Part shown: one piece after another, positions 12,079 through 48,195 of the stretch
Layout: every line of letters begins with the position of its first letter
Position numbering within the stretch: position 1 is the stretch's first letter
Assembly: GCF_964059145.1 (NCBI RefSeq)
Contig: NZ_OZ060405.1
Coordinates: 310,001-374,000, forward strand
Length of the DNA stretch: 64,000 nucleotides
Direction: 5' to 3'
Source: Buchnera aphidicola (Protaphis terricola)
GTDB lineage: Bacteria; Pseudomonadota; Gammaproteobacteria; Enterobacterales; Enterobacteriaceae
Notes under the pieces: generated by a model
The model's input: only the letters and a program-made list of their open reading frames with translations
Told to the model about the DNA's origin: nothing
Database searches by the model: none
Translations under genes and position numbers: made by a program

Positions 12079-12361
12079 TTATTTATATATATTAATGCGA
12101 ATTTTTAATTGTTTTCCTGGTTTAAAATAAGGTACATATTTTGCACTTAATTTAGTTTTTTCTCCAGTTTTAGGGTTACGAACTATACGAGATGATCTAT
12201 AATGTAAAGAAAAACTTCCAAATCCTCGAATTTCAACTCGTTCTCCATTAGCTAATGCAAAAGATATATATTCTAATATTTCTTTTATTGCATATTGTGT
12301 AATTTTATTTTTTATATGTATTTTTTTTTATTAATTTTTTAAATAATTCTGATTTTTTCAT
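12079..12361 (-). pseudogene. ihfB: Integration host factor beta subunit, frameshifted at an A9 tract
   Basis: DNA-bending HU/IHF-family protein. The start MKKSELFKKLI at 12361 matches E. coli IhfB, then an A9 tract (minus strand, bases 12329-12321) puts the frame into an early stop. Removing one A, or adding two, restores an uninterrupted reading to the stop at 12079. It contains the beta-arm hallmark [25 protein letters not shown] and YVPYFKPGK, and would give 93 residues (one A fewer) or 94 (two more, the E. coli length). The rest shows no decay, so the gene may be expressed through polymerase slippage, or the tract may be miscounted. Its position after cmk-rpsA is as in E. coli. Confidence 0.88.
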
Positions 12362-14241: not shown

Positions 14242-14910
14242 TTATATAATTATTTTTTTTTTAATTTCTTTCATTAAACATTTAATGATATCAGAAAGTG
14301 TCATATTCGTAGAATCTAGTATTATAGCATCTTTTGATGGGTATAAAGGAGAAATTGTTCGGTTTTGGTCGCGTTGATCTCGAATTTTTAATTGTTCTAA
14401 TAATTCTATATAATTAATAGATATCCCTATTTTTTTAAATTGTTTTATTCTTCTAAAAACACGAGTTTTTAAATCAGCATTTAAAAAAAACTTTATAATA
14501 GCATCAGGAAATACTACTGTCCCCATATCTCTTCCTTCTGCTATCAAGCCAGGAAATTTACGAAAACATCTTTGTTTATTTAGTAATATTTTTCTAATTT
14601 TAGTAAAAGTTGCTAATTTAGAAGCTGTTTCTCCAACTTTTTGAAGATAAATTGTTTGAGATATTAAACTTTTTTTTTGCATATTAATTTTAAAAAAAGA
14701 ACAATCTAAATTATTTAAAACAGAAACTATATTTTTCTCAATAATAGGAATATTATTTTTTAGTATTATTGATGCTAACAATCTATATATCATCCCAGAT
14801 TCTAAAATAGACCAATTTAATTTATTAGCTATTATACCACATAATGTACTTTTTCCAACGCCACTAGGTCCATCAATTGTAATTACAGGAATATTATTAT
14901 ATTTTTTCAT
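14242..14910 (-). CDS. cmk: Cytidylate kinase
   Basis: Phosphorylates CMP and dCMP. The 222 residues are close to E. coli (227). The P-loop is GPSGVGKST (residues about 14-22; E. coli GAGKGT). LESGMIYRLLA and the substrate-site AEGRDMGTVVFPDA are conserved, as is KIRDQRDQNRTISPLYPSKDA near residue 180, which holds the lid and CMP contacts. It is upstream of rpsA with a 120-base spacer, where the rpsA promoter would lie. Confidence 0.97.
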   Translation of the reverse strand: MKKYNNIPVITIDGPSGVGKSTLCGIIANKLNWSILESGMIYRLLASIILKNNIPIIEKNIVSVLNNLDCSFFKINMQKKSLISQTIYLQKVGETASKLATFTKIRKILLNKQRCFRKFPGLIAEGRDMGTVVFPDAIIKFFLNADLKTRVFRRIKQFKKIGISINYIELLEQLKIRDQRDQNRTISPLYPSKDAIILDSTNMTLSDIIKCLMKEIKKKIII

Positions 14911-30157: not shown

Positions 30158-30821
30158 ATGTCTAATATAATTTTAGCAATTGATGCTTCAATAAATTATT
30201 GTTCAATTGCTATATATAAAAATAAAAAAATATATTCATTACTAAATAAATCTAAAGAAAAACATACTATTAAAATATTACCAATGATTAAGAAAATATT
30301 AATTTTATCTAATACAAAATTAAAAGAAATTGAATATGTAACTTTTTCAAAAGGACCTGGTTATTTTACTGGATTAAGAATTGCTACAGGAATTGCTCAA
30401 AGTTTATCTTTAACTTTAAAAATTCCTATTTTAGGAATTTCAACTTTTTCTATTATAGCACAAAAAGTATGGAGAAAATATAAAAAAAAAAATACTAATT
30501 ATAATTTATGCTGGTTTAAATAAAGTATATTGGGCTGAATATATTAAAAATAATAAATTATTATGGTCTGGGGAAAAAACAGAATCTTTAATAAATATAA
30601 ATGAAATTAATAAAAAAATACACCTTTTTAAAGAAGATTGGATTATAGTTAATAGTGAATGGAATAAAAAAAAATCTTTAAATTTTTTAAAAACAAAAAA
30701 AGCAAAAACTATATTTCCTAATGCAAAAGATATAATTCCATTGGCTTTATTTAATATCAAACATAATAACTTTTTATATGCAACACAAGTTAATTCTGAG
30801 TATTTAAATGATATATTTTAA
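30158..30821 (+). pseudogene. tsaB: tRNA threonylcarbamoyladenosine protein TsaB, frameshifted at an A11 tract
   Basis: TsaB partners TsaD in making t6A37 of ANN-decoding tRNAs, a process essential in E. coli. The first part matches YeaZ/TsaB well: ILAIDAS, HTIKILPMIKKIL, SKGPGYFTGLRIATGIAQ. At an A11 tract (30482-30492) the frame runs into a stop at 30521-30523 after 121 residues. One A fewer, or two more, restores a reading with YAGLNKVYWAEY (E. coli DARMGEVYWAEY) through to the stop at 30819-30821, about 220 residues in all (E. coli 231). With two extra As the spacing equals that of E. coli. Expression by transcriptional slippage, or a miscounted homopolymer, are both plausible; true decay is less so. 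Confidence 0.88.
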
Positions 30822-31190: not shown

Positions 31191-32003
31191 CTATCTCCCG
31201 AATAAACGTCGTAAAAATCCCTTTTTTTCTTCTTCAATAAAACGAAATTTATGATTTTCACCTAATAATCTATTTACTGTATCAAAATAAGCATGTCCTG
31301 CATTGGATGTGTTATCTAAAATTACAGATTCCCCTTGATTCGATGCGCGTAATACAGAAGTATCTTCAGGAATTACACCAATAATTGGAATACGAAGTAT
31401 ATCTAAAACATCATTCATGCTTAACATTTCACCATATTTAACACGTGTTGGATTATAACGTGTTAATAAAAGATATTCTTTTATAGGTGTATTATTCTGT
31501 TCCGATCTTTTTGATTTTGATGATATAATTCCTAATATTCGATCAGAATCTCGGACTGAAGAAACTTCTGGATTTGTAGTAATAATTGCTTCATCTGCAA
31601 AATATATAGATAAAATAGCTCCTTTTTCAATTCCAGCGGGTGAATCACAAATAATAAAATCAAAACTCATTTTTATTAGTTCATTTAAAACTTTTTCTAC
31701 ACCTGAATATGTAAGAGCATCTTTATCTCGAGTTTGAGATGCTGGTAAAATAAACAAATTTTTTGTTTGTTTATCTTTAATTAAAGCTTGATTAATTTTA
31801 GCTTCACCTTGAATAACATTAACAAAATCATATACTACTCTGCGTTCACAGCCCATAATTAAATCTAAATTTCTTAAGCCTATATCAAAATCTATAACAA
31901 CAGTTTTTTTTCCTTTTCTTGCTAAACCAGTTGCAATAGCAGCGCTTGAAGTAGTTTTACCTACCCCCCCCTTCCCTGAAGTAACTACAATAATCCGTGT
32001 CAT
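31191..32003 (-). CDS. minD: Septum-site determining ATPase MinD
   Basis: Membrane-associated ParA-family ATPase that recruits MinC. It has 270 residues, as in E. coli. The deviant Walker A is [14 protein letters not shown] (residues 10-23), switch I/II regions are [14 protein letters not shown] and [12 protein letters not shown], and the C-terminal amphipathic membrane anchor [10 protein letters not shown] is present. It sits between minC (23-base gap) and minE. Confidence 0.98.
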
Positions 32004-32972: not shown

Positions 32973-33989
32973 TTGTTGTTTTCTCAAAATAGTCAATTAA
33001 TACTACGTTATAAAAAAATTTTTAAATATAAAAAAATTTTTTTTTCAGGAAATATACAAGATCATTTGCCAGTATACTTACCAAGTATAAAAACAGGAAT
33101 TCATATTACTGTAAAAAATATTTTTTTTCATGAAGTCATAAAAAACTATAAAAAAATTTACTTATATGAAAATTTAATCGTTTCTAAAAAAAATATTAAA
33201 AATTACAATGCTCTTATATATTATTGGCCTAAAAATAAATTAGAAGCTAAATTTCAATTATATAACTTATTATCTTGTTTTTCTATTAATGATGAAATTT
33301 TTATTGTTGGAAACAATTCTAGTGGAGTAAAAAACGCAATAAAAATATTAAAAAAATGGGTTATATTAAAAAAACTAGAAAATGCAAAACATTCTATTTT
33401 ATTTTCAGGAATCATTAAAAATAATACAACATTTGTATTAAAAAATTATTTTAAAACACATACTTGGGAAAATTTATTTATTAAAACTTTACCTGGTGTT
33501 TTTGGTTATAAAAAAATAGATACAGGAAGTAAATTACTTGCTTGTAGTATTAATAAGCAAGTTAATGGAGAAATACTTGATATTGGTTGTGGTTCAGGAT
33601 TTTTATCTGCGTGTATATTAAATAAGTCTCCAAATTCTTTTCTAACTATGATAGATAATAAAATATCTGCAATAATATCTAGTCAATCAACTTTAAGTAC
33701 TAATAATTTTAAGGGAAAAATTTTATTTAGTAATACCTATTCTAATATAAATAATAAATTTGATTTAATTATATCTAATCCGCCTTTTCATAATGATTTA
33801 AAAATTGATTTTTATGTTATTAAAGATATTATAACAAATTCTATAAAATATTTAAAGATAGGAGGGGAGCTAAGATTTGTTGTGAATAATTTTTTTAATT
33901 GTAAATTTATCTTAAAAAATACTTTTAATAAATATAATATCATCGAAAAAACAAATTTCTATACAGTATATCAATCTTTTTTACGATAA
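32973..33989 (+). CDS. rsmC: 16S rRNA m2G1207 methyltransferase
   Basis: Methylates G1207 of 16S rRNA using S-adenosylmethionine. It has 338 residues (E. coli 343). The start appears to be TTG at 32973, with AAGG 12 bases upstream and no in-frame ATG fitting the family start. The degenerate N-terminal domain contains IYYWPKNKLEAKFQLYNLL; the C-terminal catalytic domain has SAM motif ILDIGCGSGFLSA (about residues 196-208) and the catalytic SNPPFHND. It ends just before the convergent tRNA-Leu gene. Confidence 0.93.
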   Translation: MLFSQNSQLILRYKKIFKYKKIFFSGNIQDHLPVYLPSIKTGIHITVKNIFFHEVIKNYKKIYLYENLIVSKKNIKNYNALIYYWPKNKLEAKFQLYNLLSCFSINDEIFIVGNNSSGVKNAIKILKKWVILKKLENAKHSILFSGIIKNNTTFVLKNYFKTHTWENLFIKTLPGVFGYKKIDTGSKLLACSINKQVNGEILDIGCGSGFLSACILNKSPNSFLTMIDNKISAIISSQSTLSTNNFKGKILFSNTYSNINNKFDLIISNPPFHNDLKIDFYVIKDIITNSIKYLKIGGELRFVVNNFFNCKFILKNTFNKYNIIEKTNFYTVYQSFLR

Positions 33990-46221: not shown

Positions 46222-46538
46222 TGCAATATAAGTTATATTTAAAAGATATACAAAACTATAATGTAAAATTTATTAATGAATTAAAATACCAAGTAAAAAA
46301 TAATTCTAGAAAATATGCACTAGAAACAGCTAAAGCATTTGAAAGTATTTTTATTCACATATTATTAAAAAGTATGAGAAAATCATTAAATAATGATAGT
46401 TTATTAGATAATAATCAAAGTCATTTATATACCGAAGTATATGATGAACAAATTTCACAAGAATTATCTAAAAAAGGGTTTGGTTTATCAAATATTATTT
46501 TGCAACAAATTGATCAAAATAATAAAATATATAAATAA
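46221..46538 (+). CDS. flgJ: Rod-cap domain of FlgJ, lacking the muramidase domain
   Basis: E. coli FlgJ has 313 residues: an N-terminal rod-cap domain and a C-terminal peptidoglycan hydrolase. Here only 105 residues are present, with the rod-scaffold motif ETAKAFESIFIHILLKSMR and the end LSKKGFGLSNIILQQI; the hydrolase domain is gone and the next gene follows after 25 bases, so this is a clean domain loss rather than a frameshift. Another enzyme must open the wall for the rod. The start ATG overlaps the flgI stop (TAATG). Confidence 0.93.
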   Translation: MQYKLYLKDIQNYNVKFINELKYQVKNNSRKYALETAKAFESIFIHILLKSMRKSLNNDSLLDNNQSHLYTEVYDEQISQELSKKGFGLSNIILQQIDQNNKIYK

Positions 46539-46563
46539 TAATTTTCTACATAAGGAAATCTAT

Positions 46564-48195
46564 ATGAGTTCTATATTAACTTCTACTATTGCTAATATTG
46601 ATGCGATTAAAATATTAATTGATAATCGAACAAAAAAAATTCTACATCCAAAATATAAAGATCTATCAGAACGTATCGCAATTGAGAACAATGTAGATCA
46701 GTCTAATGCTAATCCAGGAGTAAAAGTAGAAAGTATATATGATGAATATAATAATTTTATTCAAGAAGAAAAAAGAAAAACTAATGAACGAATACAAGAA
46801 GATGAAACTCGAATTGAAGAATATTCAAAATTAGAAAAGTTATTTGTTGAAAAAGTACATGTTTTTAATGATATAATAAATGAATTATATTCTTCTATAG
46901 AAGATAGTATTGTTAAAAACAATATACATATATTTGATGCAAAAATTGAAAAAAATTTAAAAAAAGTTATATATGAATTAAAAATGTTTGATGAAAAATT
47001 AAATTTTTTAGAAAATGATATTAAATATAGTATATCAGAAAAAATAAAACAAGCAAATATTTTAATTAATAAAATTTATGATTTAAATATCAATGTTCAA
47101 TTTTTTCCAGTTGCACAAATACCTGATGGTATATATAAATACATTGATGAAAGAGATAGATTAGTTGATGAACTAAATAATATTCTAGGTGTTACAGTAG
47201 AAAAAGATAGTAATAATTTTAAAGTATATTTGAAAAATGGAATATACCTAATAAATAATAATAGAAAAATAAATTTAATTGCTTTAACATCAAAAACAAA
47301 TGATAAATACATAAGTATTGGATATTGGAATGATGACGAAAAAATAATAAAAAAAATAGAACACATGGTTCCTAGTGCATCTCTAGGAGCACTTTTTCAT
47401 TTTCTAAAAAAAGATTTAAAAGATGCAAAAAATAAACTTGGCCAACTTACTATAAATTTTGCTGATAGCATTAATGAAAATCATACTTTAGGGTATGATA
47501 TATTAGGTGGTGTTGGAAAAAAAATATTTTATATTAGTCAACCTAAAATTATATCTAGTTCAAAAAATACATCACATCCATATACATCTGTTAAATGGGT
47601 ATCTACTTCTGATGCACAAGATACTAACTATATAATATCTATGAAGGACAACCATTGGATTGTTAAAAGATTACGTGATCAAACAATAGTTGATCCAGAT
47701 ATATACCAAAAAGACAATAATACATATCTTACTTTTGATGGGATAGAATTTAAAATTGAAGGCAATGAGAATGAAAATAATGTTTATATGATTCAACCAT
47801 ATGCTGATATATTCAATGAATTAAAATTATTAATTATAGAACATGTTCCATTTGCGATGTCTTCAACAAATGATAAAGATCAAAAAAATAAAAACAATGC
47901 AATTATTATATATAATTTAAATAAAGATAAATTAGTAAATAAAAAAGATACATTAAGTCAAGCTTATTTAAAATTTTTAAAATCTATATCCTATAAATGT
48001 AATGATCTTGAAGAAAGGCTGCCTTTTAAACGTAATATGATTAGAATATTAGAAAATAAAAAATTATCAATATCTGATGATATAAATGAAGATTATAAAA
48101 ATTTAAGTTATGAACAAAAATGTTATATTGCAAATGTAAAAGTCTTAAAAATGGCTGAAAAAATTTTTGATGATATTGTAGATTGTTATAGTTAA
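46564..48195 (+). CDS. flgK: Hook-filament junction protein FlgK (divergent N-terminus)
   Basis: First hook-associated protein. The start is at 46564 (AAGGAAAT upstream); the longer open frame from 46441 overlaps flgJ and adds unrelated sequence. It has 543 residues (E. coli 547). Aligned parts: DERDRLVDELNNILGVTVEKD, SLGALFHFLKKDLKDAKNKL, NTLGYDI-type NHTLGYDILG, SSKNTSHPYTSVKWVSTSDA and the C-terminal YKNLSYEQKCYIANVKVLKMAEKIFDD. The N-terminal MSSILTSTIANIDAIKILI aligns, but the axial NNIS motif and GYTRQ are replaced by charged, Lys-rich residues (20-36). flgL, next in E. coli, is absent. Confidence 0.92.
   Translation: MSSILTSTIANIDAIKILIDNRTKKILHPKYKDLSERIAIENNVDQSNANPGVKVESIYDEYNNFIQEEKRKTNERIQEDETRIEEYSKLEKLFVEKVHVFNDIINELYSSIEDSIVKNNIHIFDAKIEKNLKKVIYELKMFDEKLNFLENDIKYSISEKIKQANILINKIYDLNINVQFFPVAQIPDGIYKYIDERDRLVDELNNILGVTVEKDSNNFKVYLKNGIYLINNNRKINLIALTSKTNDKYISIGYWNDDEKIIKKIEHMVPSASLGALFHFLKKDLKDAKNKLGQLTINFADSINENHTLGYDILGGVGKKIFYISQPKIISSSKNTSHPYTSVKWVSTSDAQDTNYIISMKDNHWIVKRLRDQTIVDPDIYQKDNNTYLTFDGIEFKIEGNENENNVYMIQPYADIFNELKLLIIEHVPFAMSSTNDKDQKNKNNAIIIYNLNKDKLVNKKDTLSQAYLKFLKSISYKCNDLEERLPFKRNMIRILENKKLSISDDINEDYKNLSYEQKCYIANVKVLKMAEKIFDDIVDCYS

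Follow-up and report, generated by a model that had tools for sequence, protein, structure and literature searches.

The window analysed here comprises 64,000 nucleotides (positions 310001-374000 of contig C1) of a Buchnera aphidicola genome, which has three contigs totalling 618,180 bases and is labelled G000 among the 36 genomes of the genus used in this study. The G+C content across the window is 22%. The 7.8-kb contig of this assembly resembles Buchnera leucine plasmids, with its best four matches originating from symbionts of Aphis at 83-85% identity. Within the window, the gene tsaB changes its reading frame at a long tract of adenines and a second gene, ihfB, is also broken. The features concerned are:

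30158..30523, plus strand: tsaB open reading frame in frame 0, 121 codons, consisting of the TsaB N-lobe in front of the A11 tract and 11 subsequent out-of-frame codons
30482..30492, plus strand: A11 tract, the site of the frame change, as read from the sequence
30492..30821, plus strand: rear part of the gene, encoding the C-lobe and read in the +1 frame; 109 codons and a stop codon (30819-30821)
12085..12330, minus strand: open part of ihfB, 82 codons, with the frame change read from a three-frame translation; the TIGR00988 match (12-93) of the gene contains an internal stop

The original prediction had placed a split of tsaB at the A11 tract, and this assignment is borne out by the relationship of both halves to the TsaB model TIGR03725. 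The front half (codons 1-110) covers positions 1-105 of the model with an E-value of 2.1e-29 and scores over its cut-off, the rear half covers positions 110-211 (E 1.2e-9) with 38.4 bits on its own at a cut-off of 69.3, and together both halves match the model along its whole length. With both halves open and homologous, the lesion corresponds to one indel in a long A run of an otherwise open gene. In the alignment at the tract, the gene of the window is two bases shorter than its intact counterpart in the relative G018, which in turn aligns at this position without gap to the TsaB chain of 4wq4, which we take to be the E. coli protein. The claim that two more adenines would give the spacing of E. 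coli TsaB thus holds. Based on our reading of the published description of the protein (PMC9654439), the break follows the AWRK segment and is located between the two lobes. Separate translation of the rear half was ruled out since the frame following the tract contains neither ATG nor GTG and as sole start-type codon a TTG at codon 84 of 109. In a multi-frame scan of the window with the genes of the relatives G015 and G018, tsaB was the sole window gene that was flagged, with the broken ihfB being overlooked by this procedure. In their own 64-kb regions, G015 and G018 contain one multi-frame gene each, which are homologues of window positions 14242-14910 and 46441-48195, respectively, and which differ from that of the window.

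We have examined the whole tsaB gene in all 36 genomes of the genus, including that of the window, and found it to be present in each of them. The frame is broken in ten, at either of two A-tracts with a length of 10-12 bases:

Broken at codon ~109: G000 (A11), G007 (A12), G013 (A11), G014 (A10), G017 (A11), G020 (A11)
Broken at codon ~21: G028 (A11), G033 (A10), G024 (A12), G023 (A10)

None of the ten genomes contains a stop after the break, and in each of them the sequence can be read without interruption to the usual end of the gene, in the frame it has behind the break. G000 and G007 each had one stop counted within the match to the rear frame, but this stop comes from a match end extending to before the tract, with none located after the RKY codons, and the run lengths A5 (G013) and A8 (G023) obtained in the same search were clipped by its limits, with longer tracts being displayed in the alignment. 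At the two tract positions, runs of at least ten adenines are broken in 10 of 18 cases and shorter runs in none of 54 (Fisher p 8e-8, with phylogeny ignored). The breaks divide equally between the two possible phases, one found in G007, G013, G033, G024 and G023 and the other in G000, G014, G017, G020 and G028. In a tree constructed from the upstream gene and the TsaB parts, G014, G017 and G020 form a clade with 100% support, and since these three genomes have one phase in common, their break is most simply regarded as inherited. The phase of the window genome is not found in its nearest relatives, with G013 being broken at the same tract in the other phase. By parsimony, we count about 7-8 origins of the break, which include four at the first tract and, at the second, one in G007, one in the clade and one or two in G000 and G013 as their phases differ. 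A lesion of another kind is found in G001 (L023), where the final ~25 residues of tsaB are located in another frame, with a switch near a short T run and no long A run. This genome was counted among the 26 others in the comparisons described below; with its inclusion, frame lesions of tsaB amount to 11 of 36.

The frequency of breaks was compared to that of neighbouring genes in a multi-frame scan of 20 kb around tsaB in all 36 genomes, using four query sets taken from G018, G026, G010 and G012. The G018 set comprised 18 query genes, of which 14 turned up in every one of the 36 genomes. Eleven of these 14 genes were flagged nowhere, leaving tsaB (flagged in 9), a gene of 338 amino acids beyond minC (9) and a gene of 134 amino acids (3). 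The remaining four query genes were found in 23, 21, 33 and 34 genomes, and two of them were flagged twice each. This set caught nine of the ten broken tsaB genes and overlooked G013, and tsaB was flagged in 10 genomes by each of the sets from G026, G010 and G012. The same three sets flagged the 134-residue gene in 3, 1 and 3 genomes, and a gene of 80 amino acids was flagged in 4 genomes by the G026 set only. The 338-residue gene, which is presumably rsmC, was flagged in 6 and 8 genomes by the other full-length sets, mostly near A10-A11 runs, and in none by the G012 set, which contained just a 124-codon piece of it. Unlike tsaB, this gene also carries internal stops in G012, G020 and G021. Among the generally kept genes of the 20-kb region, tsaB is one of the two that are most often broken. 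In the window, the 338-residue gene is open (32973-33989, plus strand), and according to the three full-length sets it is frame-broken in 6 to 9 of the 36 genomes.

We then turn to the constraint acting on the gene. Pairwise dN/dS was set aside as main test, as its estimates were widely scattered and high also for unbroken pairs. For the rear part, we obtained a value of 0.64 (0.40-1.29) for G017-G020, which decides nothing, and of 0.90 for the unbroken pair G018-G015. For that reason, we used tip lengths on a fixed tree, estimated for the gene upstream (U) and for the front (B) and rear (C) parts of tsaB, where the rate tree was built with both tsaB parts included and the tips also span time before the break. 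Pooled C/U ratios amount to 2.82 in the six genomes broken at codon ~109, to 3.43 in the four broken at codon ~21 and to 2.99 in the 26 others. As these values are reached by randomly drawn sets of equal size in 66% (six), 45% (four) and 53% (all ten) of draws, the rear part is not detectably relaxed in the broken lineages. The equivalent B/U ratios are 1.83, 2.65 and 1.50, with random sets reaching the observed values in 38% (six), 7.5% (four) and 13% (all ten) of draws, and the front part of the four genes broken early evolves somewhat fast. The gene of the window keeps all 11 columns of the rear part and all 16 columns of the front part that are invariant in the 26 other genomes, and all 11 rear-part columns are kept in nine of the ten broken genomes. 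The rates of G000 itself are high in both halves (B/U 3.59 and C/U 5.43, compared to pooled values of 1.50 and 2.99 in the others), which may reflect a weaker constraint. In simulations of neutral evolution with 0.10-0.15 change per lineage, 0.2-3% of runs ended with the rear half still open. Among G014, G017 and G020, third-position distances are 0.24-0.29 per pair.

The consequences of a loss of TsaB depend on the state of the t6A pathway. It had been argued that such loss would be unlikely in view of the essential role of t6A, and the integrity of tsaC, tsaD and tsaE had been proposed as a check. In the window genome, TsaC and TsaD are both intact, with open frames of 197 and 340 codons. 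As for TsaE, neither of two models exceeds its cut-off in a single one of the 36 genomes, with PF02367 yielding weak partial-model matches in 31 genomes, in frames of 178-442 codons, and TIGR00150 six weak matches. In sampled genomes of the family, PF02367 is over cut-off in 79 of 99, some being small symbionts, and TsaB is matched in all 149, with 147 over cut-off. Since TsaE does not exceed the cut-off in any genome of the genus, the requirement for t6A described for E. coli does not carry over as a whole, and the argument from essentiality holds in part and is weaker than initially put. In a review, TsaD-TsaB of E. coli and B. subtilis was described as lacking activity when TsaE is missing, and its T. 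maritima counterpart as having basal activity (PMC9654439), and a symbiont without tsaE that retains tsaB, tsaC and tsaD was noted in a paper on Serratia symbiotica (PMC5013485).

In light of these data, we consider it probable that a single indel of the replication-slippage type in a long poly(A) has put tsaB out of frame, that the gene is still used and that transcriptional slippage supplies in-frame mRNA. This interpretation provides the best account because there is no further decay, the rear half is conserved in all ten broken genomes and there is published precedent, and it is in line, as a reading of the sequences, with the initial proposal that slippage would supply the functional mRNA, which is thereby partly supported. 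RNA polymerase would slip on A11 and produce mRNAs of mixed A-length, of which those in frame would encode full-length TsaB as the partner of TsaD in t6A synthesis, and the remaining ones a 121-residue N-lobe protein. Given the lack of further decay and the similar breaks in relatives, the cell probably still makes some full-length TsaB through slips at A11. By precedent, transcriptional slippage at this tract is most likely, and ribosomal shifting less likely. In endosymbionts, a review places the fraction of corrected transcripts at 12-50% (PMC5009743). In Buchnera, insertions during transcription were reported to climb exponentially with run length up to 11 and about 80% of them to concern one base, and this transcript survey states that it detected no frame-restoring error (PMC5574713). 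A reporter study cited by this survey and by PMC6260861 found deletions by the E. coli polymerase to be absent on the poly(A) runs tested there, although PMC6260861 also mentions that deletions by this polymerase predominate on an A11 in vitro.

Of the alternative explanations, the one that survives best, albeit as an improbable one, assumes an early pseudogene, where tsaB was lately inactivated in this lineage, t6A is reduced or dispensable and decay is still invisible. It would account for a G000 break that is confined to a single lineage and for the fast evolution of both halves in this genome, it fits a genus in which TsaE is already undetected, and many such breaks were taken for recent inactivations by the authors of a published paper (PMC3164680). 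However, tsaB is retained in every genome of the genus, not one broken copy has acquired a stop behind the break, and in the clade of G014, G017 and G020 the break looks inherited, a situation where the neutral simulation rarely leaves the rear half open.

Sequencing of A11 tracts is prone to error, and there is a small chance that the tract length is wrong in the assembly or that the cell's many copies of the genome vary in their number of adenines, with some being in frame. Single-base indel polymorphism within Buchnera samples was indeed described (PMC3164680). However, 12 of the 13 A/T runs of at least ten bases inside open reading frames of at least 110 amino acids in the window are read through in frame, which argues against a general assembly fault, and the three sister genomes agree in phase.

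We regard it as very unlikely that the 121-residue product suffices because the N-lobe contains the TsaD-binding face and the C-lobe is dispensable. The break between the lobes would suit this possibility, as would the GPGxxTGxR motif region in the N-lobe, which has been assigned to the bundle of helices between TsaD and TsaB (PMC9654439), but the six genomes broken at codon ~109 show no relaxation of the rear part, and the four genomes broken at codon ~21 make no N-lobe. As the latter breaks result in a peptide of just 29-42 residues, the N-lobe alone cannot explain the conservation in these genomes. Finally, ribosomal frameshifting at the tract is the least credible way to restore the frame, since the slippery nature of A-tracts for ribosomes and a GGAG a few bases upstream are opposed by an unremarkable fold in the 88 nt downstream (z -0.13), by the same GGAG in the unbroken G018 and by the two phases among relatives (5 and 5 of 10), which call for different shifts and thus for a direction that is not conserved.

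Within the interpretation of rescue by transcriptional slippage, it is conceivable but doubtful that the recurrent breaks of tsaB at poly(A) persist uncorrected because they serve as dose control, where the slippage frequency would set a low level of TsaB suited to a t6A pathway deprived of TsaE in this genus. If true, the amount of a core tRNA modification would be determined by a stochastic error of transcription.

Rescue by slippage at poly(A) tracts has already been described for Buchnera and Blochmannia, and tsaB would be a further case of this known kind. In the examples reported by Tamas et al. 2008 and Wernegreen et al. 2010, a single A-tract indel equally leaves an endosymbiont gene otherwise intact, with a conserved downstream part and a break that is sometimes common to several species, but these concern other genes, and for tsaB slippage is proposed from genome sequence. 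In Blochmannia vafer, eight such genes were listed, including the essential information-transfer genes dnaG, dnaX and pth with their breaks at poly(A)/poly(T), and four genes broken only there were reported to exhibit no unusual rate increase (PMC3017870); the difference lies in the genus and the genes, and in tsaB being one gene that is broken in 10 of 36 species. In a published table, Buchnera genomes contain between 1 and 18 homopolymer frameshifts, and murF was independently broken on four occasions in several lineages (PMC3164680), which resembles the pattern of tsaB except that murF is an envelope gene, that tsaB serves tRNA modification and that one of its breaks looks inherited. The gene tssM1 of Citrobacter rodentium is also interrupted at an A11, with slippage of ~20-25% determined by experiment, but this organism is not a reduced symbiont, needs both products and reaches the frame by a gain of one base (PMC4256274). 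In the literature covered by our search, we found no paper on repeated breaks of tsaB (yeaZ) in Buchnera, although Table S3 of PMC3164680, which covers repeatedly inactivated genes, may list it. What appears to be new is tsaB as a repeated case, with a break that is apparently inherited and seems not to be followed by relaxation. A translation-fidelity gene would thus join the endosymbiont genes that are apparently kept alive by polymerase slippage, and the ten broken and 26 other species, with two tracts and both phases, offer a natural series for testing rescue.

The second broken gene of the window, ihfB, had been likened to tsaB. Its frame is indeed broken, with the start of the gene located in another frame, but the two parts are joined at an A tract of 9 bases (12321-12329) and not at an A11. 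The identical correction phase of both genes, initially considered notable, was ruled out as an argument because only two phases exist, which makes agreement between two genes a one-in-two coincidence, and the broken tsaB genes of relatives include both. Across the genus, a stop inside the ihfB match is found in G000, G013 and G031, and the match in G032 is in two pieces. At 31964-31971, near the start of a gene that we assume to be minD-like, eight consecutive C (G in the coding sense) are found in a window with a G+C content of 22%.
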